From: Anaerotruncus massiliensis (ex Togo et al. 2026)
GTDB taxonomy: Bacteria > Bacillota > Clostridia > Oscillospirales > Ruminococcaceae
NCBI RefSeq assembly: GCF_900199635.1
Contig: NZ_LT962687.1
Coordinates: 915,501 to 979,500 of the forward strand
Length of the DNA stretch: 64,000 bases
Direction: 5' to 3'
Shown here piece after piece: positions 6,120 to 32,399 of the stretch. The position numbers and the translations under genes are program-made. The notes under the pieces were generated by a model. That model was not told the DNA's origin. It made no database searches and saw only the letters and a list, made by a program, of their open reading frames with translations. Each line of letters begins with the position of its first letter. Position 1 is the first letter of the stretch.

Positions 6120-6653
6120 TTGAATATTTGGCATGACATGTCGCCCAAGCGCATTACCAAAAACGACTTTATCGCTGTGATCGAAATCCAGAAGGGCGGG
6201 AAGAATAAGTACGAGCTGGATAAGGAGACGGGGCTGATCATCCTCGACCGGATCCTCTACACCTCCACCCACTATCCCGCCAACTACGGCTTCATCCCGC
6301 GCACCTACGGCGACGACAACGACCCGCTCGACGTGCTGGTGCTCTGCTCCGAGGCGCTCATCCCGCTGAGCCTCGTGCGCTGCTACCCGATCGGCGTCAT
6401 TTCGATGATCGACAACGGCAAAAACGACGAGAAGATCATCGCGATCCCCTTTGAGGACCCGATGTACAACCACTACCGGGATATCAGCGAGCTGCCCGAG
6501 CATGTCTTTGCCGAGATGCGCCACTTCTTCAGCGTCTACAAATCCCTCGAGGGCAAACAGACCGCCGTCAACGAGGTGGCCGGCCCCGAAACCGCGATCG
6601 AGATCGTCCAGAACGCGATCGACCACTACGTCGAGAAATTCTGCCGCGGATAG
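6120..6653 (+). CDS. ppa: Inorganic pyrophosphatase (family I)
   Basis: A 177-residue soluble family I pyrophosphatase, hydrolysing PPi to phosphate and so pulling biosynthetic reactions forward. Signatures are YPANYGFIPRTYGDDNDPLDVLVL, interrupted here only for quoting: the acidic block GDDNDPLD carries the metal-binding Asp residues. Length is typical. The start is a TTG at 6120, eight bases after AAGGGG; no ATG lies in a better position. It is a single gene with its own promoter and terminator. Confidence 0.93.
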   Translation: MNIWHDMSPKRITKNDFIAVIEIQKGGKNKYELDKETGLIILDRILYTSTHYPANYGFIPRTYGDDNDPLDVLVLCSEALIPLSLVRCYPIGVISMIDNGKNDEKIIAIPFEDPMYNHYRDISELPEHVFAEMRHFFSVYKSLEGKQTAVNEVAGPETAIEIVQNAIDHYVEKFCRG

Positions 6654-6682
6654 ATCCCGCGAAGCTCCGGAAATACGGAAAA

Positions 6683-6716
6683 CCCCCGCCGCTGTGATAC
6701 AGCGGCGGGGGGTTTT
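6683..6716 (+). terminator. Terminator of ppa
   Basis: A perfect 12-bp stem (6683-6694 with 6700-6711, loop TGATA) followed by GTTTTG. Confidence 0.8.
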
Positions 6717-6721
6717 GCGCG

Positions 6722-6816
6722 GCGGCGGGATCGCCCGCGCGAAGCGCGGGGCGCCGCGGGGCCGCCAGCGGGCGGCCCCGCGGCGTGCCGTCCCGTGGGA
6801 CGGCCGATCCCGCCGC
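6722..6816. repeat. Perfectly nested four-way-junction sequence
   Basis: A 12-bp outer stem (6722-6733 with 6805-6816) encloses three adjacent hairpins: 6734-6750 (7-bp stem, GAA loop), 6752-6785 (15-bp stem, AGCG loop) and 6787-6804 (8-bp stem). Only single bases separate the helices. It lies between the ppa terminator and feoB. It could be a structured RNA, a cruciform-forming DNA element, or a miniature mobile palindromic element. I do not recognise it. Confidence 0.75.
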
Positions 6817-6928
6817 GTCTCCGTCCCTTCCGCCGCGCCCTCCGGCGGCGAGGGCTAAAAATTCCCGCCGTGTCATATGCTGGTGGCAGGGGACAAACCC
6901 GAATCGGAAACGCGGGGAGGAACGGGCA

Positions 6929-8938
6929 ATGCGGACGGTGGCGCTGGCGGGCAATCCCAACTGCGGCAAGACCACCCTGTTCAACCGGCTCACGGGGCAG
7001 AGCCAGCACGTGGGCAACTGGGCGGGGGTGACGGTCGAACGCCGGGAGGGACGGATCGAAGCGGCGGGAGAGCGGGCGGTGCTCGTCGACCTGCCGGGCA
7101 TCTATTCGCTCGCGGCGTATACGCTGGAGGAGCGGGTCGCGCGGGAGTTCCTGCTCGGCGGGCAGGCGGACGCGGCGGTCAACATTTTGGACGGCACCTC
7201 GCTCGAACGGGGGCTCTACCTGACGCTGCAGCTCTGCGAGCTGGGGACCCCGATGGCGGTCGCCGTGGGAATGATGGACGAGGTGCGGGCGGCGGGCGGC
7301 GGCGTGGACGCCGCCCGGATGGAAAAGCTGCTGGGGGTGCCGGTGGTGCCCGTCGCGGCGAGGAAGGGGGAGCGTGTGGAGGAGCTGGCGGCCGCGGCGC
7401 TGGGCCGCGCGCGCGTCCCGCCGCCGCCCCGGTACGGGGAACCGCTCGACGGCGCGATCGCGGAGGCGGCGCGCGCCGTCGAAGGAGCGGTGCGGGAACC
7501 GGGCCGGCTGCGGTTCTATGCCGCCGGGCTGCTGGAGGACCCGGACGCGTTCAAGGACCGCCTGCGCCTCACCGCCCGACAGAGGTGGGAGCTGCGGCGC
7601 ATCCGCGCGTCGCTCGAGCGGGAGACGGGGGAGGACACGGCCTCGCTCATCGCGGGGGCGCGCTACCGGCTGATCGAACGCATCCTGCGGGAGGCGGTGA
7701 AAACGCCGCCCCGGCCCGCGGGCGGGACCCTCACCGACCGGATCGACGGGGCGGTCCTGCACCGGAAGCTGGCCTTCCCGATCTTCCTGGCCGCGATGGC
7801 CGGGATGTTCGGCGTCTGCTTCGGAGGGCCGGGGCTCGCGCTCAAAGGCTGGATGGAACGGCTGCTCGCCGGGCTTTCGGCGGGCCTTTCCGGATGGCTT
7901 CCCGCGCTCGGCGTGTCGCCGCCCGTCTCCGACCTGCTGGTGGGCGGCGTGCTCGGCGGGGTGGGCAGCGTCCTCACCTTTCTGCCGCAGGTGGCGCTCA
8001 TCTTCCTCTGCCTCACGCTGCTCGAGGAGTGCGGCTACCTCTCCCGCGCGGCCTTTCTGATGGACCTGCCCCTGCGGCGGCTGGGGCTCACGGGCAAATC
8101 CTTCATCCCCATGCTGATGGGCTTCGGCTGCACCACGCCGGCGGTCATGGCCGCCCGCACGCTGGGGGGCGAGCGGGACCGGCGGCTGACCATCCTGCTG
8201 ACCCCCTACCTGCCCTGCAGCGCGCGCTTCCCGATCTACGCCCTCTTCGCCGGGGTCTTCTTCCCGCGGCGGCAGGGACTGGCGGTCGCGGCGCTCTACC
8301 TTGCGGGGATTGCGGCGATGGCGGCGGTCGGCTGGTTTTTGCGCAAAGGCCCCTTCCGGGGGCGGGAGGCCCCCTTCCTCATGGAGTTCCCGCCCTACCG
8401 CGCCCCCTCGCTGCGAAACGTCCTGCGCAACACCGGGGAAAAGTGCGGCGACTTCCTGCGCAAGGCGGGGACCCTCATCTTTGCGATGAGCGTGCTCATC
8501 TGGCTGCTCCAGCATGTGGACGGGGGACTCCGCTTCACGGCGGACCCCGCCGCCAGCCTCTTCGCGCGGGCGGGCGGCGTGCTCGCGCCCCTCTTTTCGC
8601 CGCTCGGCTTCGGCTTCCGGGAGGCGGCGGTCGCGCTGCTCGCCGGGCTGGTCTCCAAGGAGGCGGTCGTCTCGACGCTGGGGGTGTCGCTCGCGGGGGA
8701 GGGGCCTCTCGCGGCGGCGCTCGCCGCGCGGTTTTCCCCCCTCTCCGCCGCGGCCTTCCTCGTCTTCTGCGCGCTTTACGCCCCCTGCGTGTCGGCGCTC
8801 GCGACGATGCGCCGCGAGCTCCATTCCACCTGGCGCGCGCTCGCGGCGGCCCTCCTGCAAACCGCCGTCGCCTATGCCGCCGCGCTCGCGGTCTTCCAGC
8901 TTGGCACGCTCGCCCAAAACCTCGCCGGATTGCTTTGA
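6929..8938 (+). CDS. feoB: Ferrous iron transporter FeoB
   Basis: A 669-residue membrane protein importing Fe(II), with an N-terminal G domain, a helical spacer and a membrane core. G1 (GNPNCGKT), G2-like GNWAGVTVE and G3 (DLPGIYSL) are clear; the core carries the family motif GFGCTTPAVMAART. The G4 region reads VAVGMMDEV, so the Asn of NxxD is Gly, and the G5-like block reads VAARKGE. No feoA precedes it, unlike many Clostridia. The ATG at 6929 follows a GGGGAGG ribosome binding site and begins right at the G1 strand; the frame is open further upstream but that part is the hairpin region. Confidence 0.92.
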   Translation: MRTVALAGNPNCGKTTLFNRLTGQSQHVGNWAGVTVERREGRIEAAGERAVLVDLPGIYSLAAYTLEERVAREFLLGGQADAAVNILDGTSLERGLYLTLQLCELGTPMAVAVGMMDEVRAAGGGVDAARMEKLLGVPVVPVAARKGERVEELAAAALGRARVPPPPRYGEPLDGAIAEAARAVEGAVREPGRLRFYAAGLLEDPDAFKDRLRLTARQRWELRRIRASLERETGEDTASLIAGARYRLIERILREAVKTPPRPAGGTLTDRIDGAVLHRKLAFPIFLAAMAGMFGVCFGGPGLALKGWMERLLAGLSAGLSGWLPALGVSPPVSDLLVGGVLGGVGSVLTFLPQVALIFLCLTLLEECGYLSRAAFLMDLPLRRLGLTGKSFIPMLMGFGCTTPAVMAARTLGGERDRRLTILLTPYLPCSARFPIYALFAGVFFPRRQGLAVAALYLAGIAAMAAVGWFLRKGPFRGREAPFLMEFPPYRAPSLRNVLRNTGEKCGDFLRKAGTLIFAMSVLIWLLQHVDGGLRFTADPAASLFARAGGVLAPLFSPLGFGFREAAVALLAGLVSKEAVVSTLGVSLAGEGPLAAALAARFSPLSAAAFLVFCALYAPCVSALATMRRELHSTWRALAAALLQTAVAYAAALAVFQLGTLAQNLAGLL

Positions 8939-31478: not shown

Positions 31479-32399
31479 ATGATCGACCAGAGGATACGCC
31501 GGTATCCGCCGCGCGCGGGGATGCGCAGGCGGCGGGAGAGGGACCCCTATCTCTTCACGGTGATCGTGCAGATCGTCCTGTGCGCGGCGCTGCTGCTCGG
31601 CTGCCTGGGGCTGCGGAGGTTCCAGCCGGGGGCCGCGCGGGGAATGGCGGAGCTCTTTGACGGGCTGCTGACCGCCGACCGGGTGGAAATCCCGAGCGGG
31701 ACGGGGGTGGCGGCGGTCTCCGCGCGGGCGCGGGAAGCGGCGGATCACGCGGCGGACGCCGCCGCGCGGGTGCTGACCGAGCTGCTCACGCCGCCCGCCG
31801 CTCAGCCGCCGTCCCCGGACGCGCCCGGGGACGGCGACACCGGAGGAAGCGGCGGCGGGAGTACCGCCGCCGCTTCCTCCGGTCCCTCCGCTCCGGCGGA
31901 GGGGCTGAGCGGCGCGGGCGGCTGGTTCGGGCGCGGCGACGCGGCGGGGAAGGAGGCCCCCTCCTCCTGCGCCTTTTCGCCGATCCTCGTCTCGGCGCGG
32001 GTGGACGCGCCGGCCGGGGGCGCCGTGACCTCTCCGTTCGGCTGGCGGGAACACCCCATCTCGGGTGCGGAGGACTTCCACCGGGGGGTGGACATCGCGG
32101 CGGCTTCGGGCAGCGGCATCTACGCGTCGTTGCCGGGGCGGGTCGTGGAGGTGGACAGCTCCCCCATCTACGGCAACTACATCACCCTTGACCACGGCGG
32201 CGGGCTGACGACCACCTACTGCCACTGCGAGTCGATCGCCGCGCCGCTCGGCGCGAACCTGCGGCGGGGGGAGCTTGTCGCGCTGGTGGGCAGCACGGGC
32301 ATCTCCACCGGGCCGCACGTCCACTTTGAGATCAGCAAGGACGGCCGGTACTACAACCCCGCGTGGGTGCTCGACGGGATGGACGCCGATGGAGTTTGA
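31479..32399 (+). CDS. SpoIVFA-like M23 membrane protein
   Basis: A 306-residue protein with one transmembrane helix (about residues 24-46), a low-complexity Pro/Ser/Gly linker (100-155) and a C-terminal M23 domain (about 185-300). The metal ligands FHRGVD and HVHFE are present. Its position in front of a SpoIVFB-like protease, with which it overlaps by 11 bp, suggests the SpoIVFA role: holding the pro-sigma-K protease inactive in the forespore outer membrane. The intact zinc site is notable because this partner is often regarded as a non-catalytic scaffold. ATG at 31479 follows AAAGGAG at a somewhat long distance. Confidence 0.75.
   Translation: MIDQRIRRYPPRAGMRRRRERDPYLFTVIVQIVLCAALLLGCLGLRRFQPGAARGMAELFDGLLTADRVEIPSGTGVAAVSARAREAADHAADAAARVLTELLTPPAAQPPSPDAPGDGDTGGSGGGSTAAASSGPSAPAEGLSGAGGWFGRGDAAGKEAPSSCAFSPILVSARVDAPAGGAVTSPFGWREHPISGAEDFHRGVDIAAASGSGIYASLPGRVVEVDSSPIYGNYITLDHGGGLTTTYCHCESIAAPLGANLRRGELVALVGSTGISTGPHVHFEISKDGRYYNPAWVLDGMDADGV

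Follow-up and report, generated by a model that had tools for sequence, protein, structure and literature searches.

The 95-nt cloverleaf at positions 6722-6816 of the window, as we call the whole 64-kb stretch of DNA analysed here, is best read as belonging to a dispersed, mobile-type set of palindromic repeats that are kept as four-way junctions at the DNA level and whose arms can be exchanged, a reading to which we assign a probability of about 0.6. Four properties of this set were observed directly: its multiplicity, a fixed architecture combined with changing sequence, compensation within one family of 75 bp, and presence/absence within the genus. In the scheme that we propose, the window element would be one member of a group of lineage-specific, genome-dispersed small palindromic repeats, the unit of which is probably a four-way junction, with an outer stem that serves as inverted termini and encloses three directly adjoining hairpins. 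The elements would be non-autonomous mobile DNA, inserted mostly into intergenic DNA by some activity, and at one site that differs between two members of the genus (G001 and G002) an older hairpin may have received the insertion in one of its arms. Pairing would be kept at the DNA level, be it by arm-to-arm correction through template switching, by a mobilising activity that needs the folded junction, or by both. Mobility of the window element itself, its enzyme and its extrusion are what we infer.

The window element consists of a perfect 12-bp outer stem (5′ arm at 6722-6733, 3′ arm at 6805-6816, apparent from direct reading and from the folds) that closes three hairpins: hairpin 1 at 6734-6750 with 7 bp and a 3-nt loop, hairpin 2 at 6751-6786 with 15 Watson-Crick bp, a terminal G·U and a 4-nt loop, and hairpin 3 at 6787-6804, which can be drawn either with 8 bp and a 2-nt loop or with 7 bp and a 4-nt loop. 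A preliminary description of this DNA had single bases unpaired between the helices; the junction contains two such bases when the terminal G·U is left aside and none when it is counted. Its claim that nested pairing of this degree exceeds chance was borne out by the folding that it had suggested. As RNA, the region 6700-6840 reached z-scores of -6.5 on the plus and -6.4 on the minus strand, the 95-nt element as DNA (one strand, predicted) reached -9.05, and in each case none of 200 shuffles folded as well.

The element occupies part of a 275-bp gap that separates ppa for inorganic pyrophosphatase (6120-6653, plus strand, PF00719) from feoB for a ferrous iron transporter (6929-8938, plus strand, PF02421 and gene call). 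A similarity search of this gap against a plasmid collection gave no match. A separate terminator-like hairpin, on which the preliminary description was silent, stands behind ppa at about 6683-6716; the terminator scan flags it on the minus strand (one site versus 0.4 expected), and on direct reading TTTT is present on the plus strand, too. It was the sole site in 6600-6960 (there delimited as about 6683-6711), and no intrinsic terminator, i.e., a GC-rich hairpin with a T-run, was found at 6722-6816. Any effect of the element on ppa or feoB is probably incidental.

The same shape recurs across the genome from which the window is taken (G000, G+C about 63%). A strict detector, defined by a perfect Watson-Crick outer stem enclosing adjacent hairpins, picked out two junctions in the window, each with three hairpins, and no two- or four-hairpin junction. 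The two are the element itself and a second junction at 31796-31914 (outer stem of 11 bp, hairpins of 12, 20 and 8 bp). Five order-3 Markov versions of the window, for which only two and three hairpins were tried, contained neither type. A further 800 kb of G000 (40 stretches of 20 kb) yielded 12 three-hairpin, three two-hairpin and no four-hairpin junctions, and the corresponding Markov controls no three-hairpin junction. In the resulting total for 864 kb, 14 three-hairpin and three two-hairpin matches, counts are not independent because eight of the 14 are copies of the 75-bp family; two of the 14 are weak (L102:2051 and L121:16017), and one two-hairpin place coincides with a weak three-hairpin match. 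Other elements share the shape with unrelated sequence, such as L208:16558-16676, whose hairpins measure 17, 8 and 17 bp. When 20 elements were folded, 18 formed three hairpins, the exceptions (L208:12561 and L202:13618) both being model matches. An energy-based census of the 864 kb with loose limits, dominated by folds in coding DNA, listed 419 two-, 86 three-, 17 four-, one five- and one seven-branch junctions. With tightened limits it gave 16 three-, five two- and no four-branch junctions; these limits were chosen after the loose list had been viewed, so that the strict detector and the chain test presented below are the fairer evidence.

The second junction of the window lies within an M23 peptidase gene, in the stretch that encodes a Gly-, Ser-, Ala- and Pro-rich linker, and one of its hairpins comprises 20 perfect bp in frame. 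Four of ten M23 relatives passed a motif filter and were aligned; among them, the linker was variable in length and no clean insertion was apparent.

Cloverleafs were also found in other genomes, and each of G000, G001, G002 and G205 has its own element sequences. Among 80 loci around relatives of ppa (607 kb, about 7.6 kb each), 79 gave no strict match and a single one, L076, gave two, with a third element revealed by a looser fold in the same 8.5 kb. The genome of L076 (G205, 52% G+C) contained 11 three-hairpin, no two-hairpin and one four-hairpin match in 397 kb, the latter being an alternative reading of one of the 11 three-hairpin places, and its elements form recurring outer-stem families. 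Within the genus, the strict detector found one three-hairpin and no two-hairpin junction in 240 kb of G001, three and none, respectively, in 400 kb of G002, and nothing in 160 kb of G004. The Markov control of the G002 and G205 scan was free of three-hairpin junctions, one Markov version containing a two-hairpin match. Three further elements came from a model search, all of them folding as three hairpins: L261 (G001, E 0.002), L262 (G205, E 0.003) and L263 (G002, E 0.88); in G005 and G007, the search gave no match up to an E of 1. A looser energy census of G001 and G004 (400 kb) runs against the three-hairpin pattern, with two two-branch junctions and one three-branch junction.

For the chain test, runs of adjacent hairpins were listed without requiring an outer stem and then scored for enclosure. 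All three-hairpin runs proved to be enclosed (6/6 in G000, 2/2 in G205, 2/2 in G002 and 1/1 in G001, 11/11 in total), as opposed to 2/54 two-hairpin runs (0/33, 2/12, 0/7 and 0/2 in the same order of genomes). The single four-hairpin run was not enclosed, and the two enclosed pairs, both from G205, are in fact elements with three hairpins, one of which escaped detection. Fisher's test for 11/11 versus 2/54 gives p = 9e-11 with runs that are not independent: the 11 represent five outer-stem families, and all six from G000 belong to the 75-bp family. With five families substituted for the 11 runs, p is about 4e-6. The window element is outside these runs, since its full-length hairpin 3 has a 2-nt loop, beyond the limits used. 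Exactly three hairpins is not an absolute rule.

Two sequence kin of the window element were seen. L241:2231-2315 is 92% identical to it over 36 query bases and has the outer stem and hairpin 1 in common with it; its hairpins 2 and 3 are quite unlike those of the window element, yet perfect. L102:7289-7370 shares hairpin 1 when reversed, contains a hairpin similar to hairpin 3 and has a different outer stem. Among these relatives, arms have thus been exchanged and the shape has been kept. In a DNA search of 11 genus genomes, the sequence of the window element was met in its own genome only. A search for copies elsewhere, which had been proposed at the outset, succeeded for the shape, found across G000 and in G001, G002 and G205, and for the sequence itself in G000 only.

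The 75-bp family is represented in G000 by 39 copies with the exact outer stem, and a covariance model places it at at least 49 distinct positions (from 91 strand matches), a lower bound as 150 of 9,097 candidates were scored. Approximately 32 of 37 listed copies are embedded in a longer repeat of about 430 bp, the remaining copies being solitary and mostly located in short intergenic gaps. Searches by DNA in 11, by pattern in 100 and by model in 197 genomes encountered the family in its own genome only, with the exception of a single pattern match in G092, which on reading lacks the shape; the model search, with 24 candidates scored per genome and stricter filters, has little bearing on relatives by shape alone. 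One copy compared with phages and one exact pattern compared with viral contigs gave no match. Some intergenic gaps of about 1 kb are mosaics of structured repeats that include the 430-bp repeat with its 75-bp cloverleaf (L242 1193-2236 and similar gaps in G000 next to other copies of the long family).

In 17 copies of this family (16 distinct), 99.4% of 526 cells are paired, and 10 of 33 pairs have changed on both sides (shuffle mean 3.9, 0/500 as high); one of five covariation measures, that of further pair types, was not above shuffles (192/500). As elements were mostly found by pairing, the share of perfect pairs is inflated, and double changes are less biased. The outer stem is invariant in nine of ten pairs in a family of which many copies were collected by that very stem. 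Outer stems also recur in G205 and in G001/G002, forming conserved terminal inverted repeats as used to define MITEs. Uncompensated changes in the outer stem together with a lack of other copies had been named in the preliminary description as pointing to chance; other copies exist, and the 75-bp family is compensated.

At three orthologous sites, a pair of cloverleafs is present in one of G001 and G002 and missing from the other. These pairs are related to the window element by shape and are not its sequence kin. Pieces of the two genomes longer than 500 bp align with 86-94% identity. At L339:14081, which was read from the sequence strings (the MAFFT alignment misplaces the gap there), G001 has two adjacent cloverleafs of about 160 bp between GTGGTATAAT and AACCGC, and G002 reads straight through. 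The insert sits within one arm of an older hairpin, between near-identical direct repeats, GTGGTATAAT and GTGATATAAT, which may belong to the repeat itself. At L315:2011, the pair is present in G002 and absent in G001, which contains other repeat modules at this place, and at L212:5655-5812, where the gap is more widely diverged, it is present in G001 and absent in G002. Because the insert at L339:14081 lies in an older hairpin arm and is bounded by direct repeats, transposition, recombination and loss are indistinguishable there, and presence/absence data cannot separate insertion from deletion or from recombination between flanking repeats. No consistent target-site duplication was recognised by eye in the flanks examined in G000 or G205, and neither an excision product nor a transposase, looked for as Y1, was found. 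Among the three guesses offered originally, a miniature mobile palindrome fits best: the elements occupy many genomic places, the window element is absent between ppa and feoB in G001 and G002, and three sites are polymorphic for a like shape. A cruciform-forming site is compatible with the lack of a strand bias in gene direction, extrusion as such being putative.

A more far-reaching form of the mobile-repeat reading, possible although rather doubtful, is that of a shape-defined mobile DNA. The folded junction itself would be both recognised and copied, arms would be exchangeable, and elements unrelated in sequence would constitute one system across lineages, served by a junction-recognising enzyme other than Y1/RAYT.

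Alternatively, the cloverleafs might be by-products that are not mobile as such, with replication template switching, in which one arm is copied onto the other and loops can become inverted, making and perfecting GC-rich intergenic hairpins, and ordinary repeat recombination moving them around. We consider this unlikely. In its favour, stems are near-perfectly Watson-Crick paired in spite of unrelated sequences, the inserts in G001/G002 are bounded by direct repeats that permit recombination, and the template-switch mechanism is documented, as far as the excerpts of PMC8794818 and PMC8604942 go. One clear loop inversion was seen among otherwise similar copies, L147 having GAA where 25 of 32 copies have TTC, and an inverted loop is described as a footprint of template switching in the excerpt of PMC8604942. 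L145 was considered as a second case and rejected, as its nearest copy, L106, has the loop CCT. What the by-product explanation does not predict is the enclosure of precisely the three-hairpin runs (11/11 versus 2/54), and taken alone it leaves the occurrence of one outer stem at many separate places unexplained.

It is likewise unlikely that the elements act as structured RNA, i.e., as 3′ UTR stabilisers, cluster-of-hairpins terminators or sRNAs that have spread because they are useful at gene ends. Genes, mostly unnamed, were called with our own codon-usage script and not with a standard caller; on this basis, 42 elements outside the long repeat are distributed over 23 tandem, eight convergent and four divergent gaps, four overlap a called gene and three lie at locus edges. 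The 23 elements in tandem gaps follow a stop codon at a median distance of 104 nt and precede a start codon at a median of 151 nt, and seven of them begin 8-27 nt after the stop codon. The tandem and convergent positions and the proximity of these seven to stop codons speak for a role at the RNA level, as does TTTT adjoining a hairpin within the outer stem of the 75-bp family. According to the available part of PMC8355165, clusters of hairpins are able to terminate transcription. On the other hand, the long family is oriented opposite to tandem genes in 16 cases and in the same direction in eight, loops vary among elements, and no terminator-like site is found at 6722-6816, the one detected preceding the element.

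The few mispairs bear on the same question. In 75 hand-listed elements, drawn from four genomes, Watson-Crick pairing is seen at 1,888 of 1,927 interior positions, the rest comprising 17 G·T, 16 A·C and six others. If RNA were selected on the gene strand, an excess of G·T would be expected; in gene direction, eight G·T face 13 A·C (p 0.38), which would argue against such selection. In the 75-bp family's own orientation (32/37 copies, those of standard length), the ratio of G·T to A·C is 13:5 and leans to RNA.

Very unlikely, too, is a REPIN/REP system mobilised by a RAYT (Y1) transposase. REP, REPIN and BIME repeats with their RAYTs, as portrayed in the portion of PMC3116915 at hand, are likewise short, intergenic and palindromic, of similar size, numerous in each genome and organised in species-specific families, and the same source puts forward a clover fold for REPINs. 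There, however, the clover is suggested, whereas it is the predicted best fold here, and REPINs are two inverted REP hairpins tied to RAYT, in contrast to three unlike hairpins inside an outer stem. In the window element, in the 75-bp family and in L208:16558 alike, direct reading shows that hairpin 3 is no inverted copy of hairpin 1. A search with PF01797 (E up to 0.001) detected no Y1 transposase in G000, G001 and G002, though it did so in six of 11 genus genomes; a diverged RAYT might escape this profile. G004 has ten Y1_Tnp matches, five of them with an internal stop, and G000-G003 and G010 have none.

Other known repeats come close in different ways. Correia/NEMIS, ERIC/RU and CIR, the MITE-like repeats covered by the excerpt of PMC2229807, resemble the cloverleafs in length (about 100-200 bp), stable folds and intergenic as well as intragenic location. 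However, Correia/NEMIS and ERIC/RU form long stem-loops by end-to-end pairing and CIR consists of two arms and a linker, and a four-way junction with variable, compensated arms is absent from the descriptions in that excerpt. The stem-loop repeat families of bacteria outlined in the accessible text of PMC2267715 have a predicted shared fold and a mostly intergenic location in common with our elements; they were built from clusters of similar sequence in 40 genomes, a route that a shape-defined class would escape. Template-switch evolution of hairpins, in what was available of PMC8794818 and PMC8604942, accounts for perfect arms, multi-base compensation and inverted loops; it is a mutational process rather than an element, and does not set the number of hairpins. 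Among the open-licence PMC matches listed, none named a four-way-junction repeat family of this kind, and PMC13155455 makes no mention of four-way, nested, multi-branch or cloverleaf forms, of Oscillospirales-type names or of Clostridia. The REP/REPIN/MITE-like kind is already known; a three-arm junction with exchangeable, compensated arms was not described among those open-licence matches. The initial observation is real and wider than first described, extending to a set of dispersed palindromic repeats defined by shape.

A riboswitch-like regulator in the feoB leader that is specific for iron uptake, in substance the structured RNA suggested by the preliminary description, is hardly tenable and largely refuted. 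Its location spoke for such a role, with 112 nt between the end of the element and the start of feoB on the coding strand. Two members of the genus, G001 and G002, were found to have feoB behind ppa, and the gap there lacks the window element; feoB beside ppa was not matched in the other seven genus loci and in L009, which are uninformative about the element. The element is not kept upstream of feoB. In addition, the shape recurs in dozens of other gaps (with unnamed flanking genes), and Rfam returned no match at gathering score in the 64-kb window. When 6640-6940 was scanned permissively, 12 matches below threshold appeared, all inside 6657-6749 and mainly on the upstream hairpin; none of them spans 6722-6816. 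Chance in GC-rich DNA, for which the roughly 63% G+C of the genome might be invoked, is refuted by the absence of three-hairpin junctions from every Markov control, by the lack of matches with two, three or four hairpins in 400 kb (eight 50-kb stretches from a plasmid collection, some with 59-63% G+C) from Subdoligranulum, Collinsella, Methylosinus, Deinococcus, Monoglobus and Roseburia, and by the richness in elements of G205 at only 52% G+C.

Dispersed bacterial repeats are usually grouped by sequence; the constant feature here is geometry, one stem closing three hairpins, with compensated changes of sequence and exchange of entire arms. If the elements are mobile, they could be used to ask whether a folded DNA junction can serve as the unit that is recognised for movement, and how hairpins stay perfect without RNA selection. 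Strong compensatory covariation alone is not proof of a functional RNA.

Some intergenic regions of G001 and G002 contain arrays of palindromic modules joined at GGTATAAT (L212 5538-6199, L315 1804-2589 and L330 11826-12448). This motif presumably resembles an extended -10 promoter. The motif is repeated by insertions in the arrays, which might leave a promoter downstream intact. In nine loci of G000, a search for tRNA and tmRNA found none and Rfam at gathering score recognised nothing for the elements; elsewhere in these loci it identified one glmS ribozyme (RF00234, 65 bits), located at L109 11101-11254 in a 20-kb stretch that it shares with two cloverleafs.
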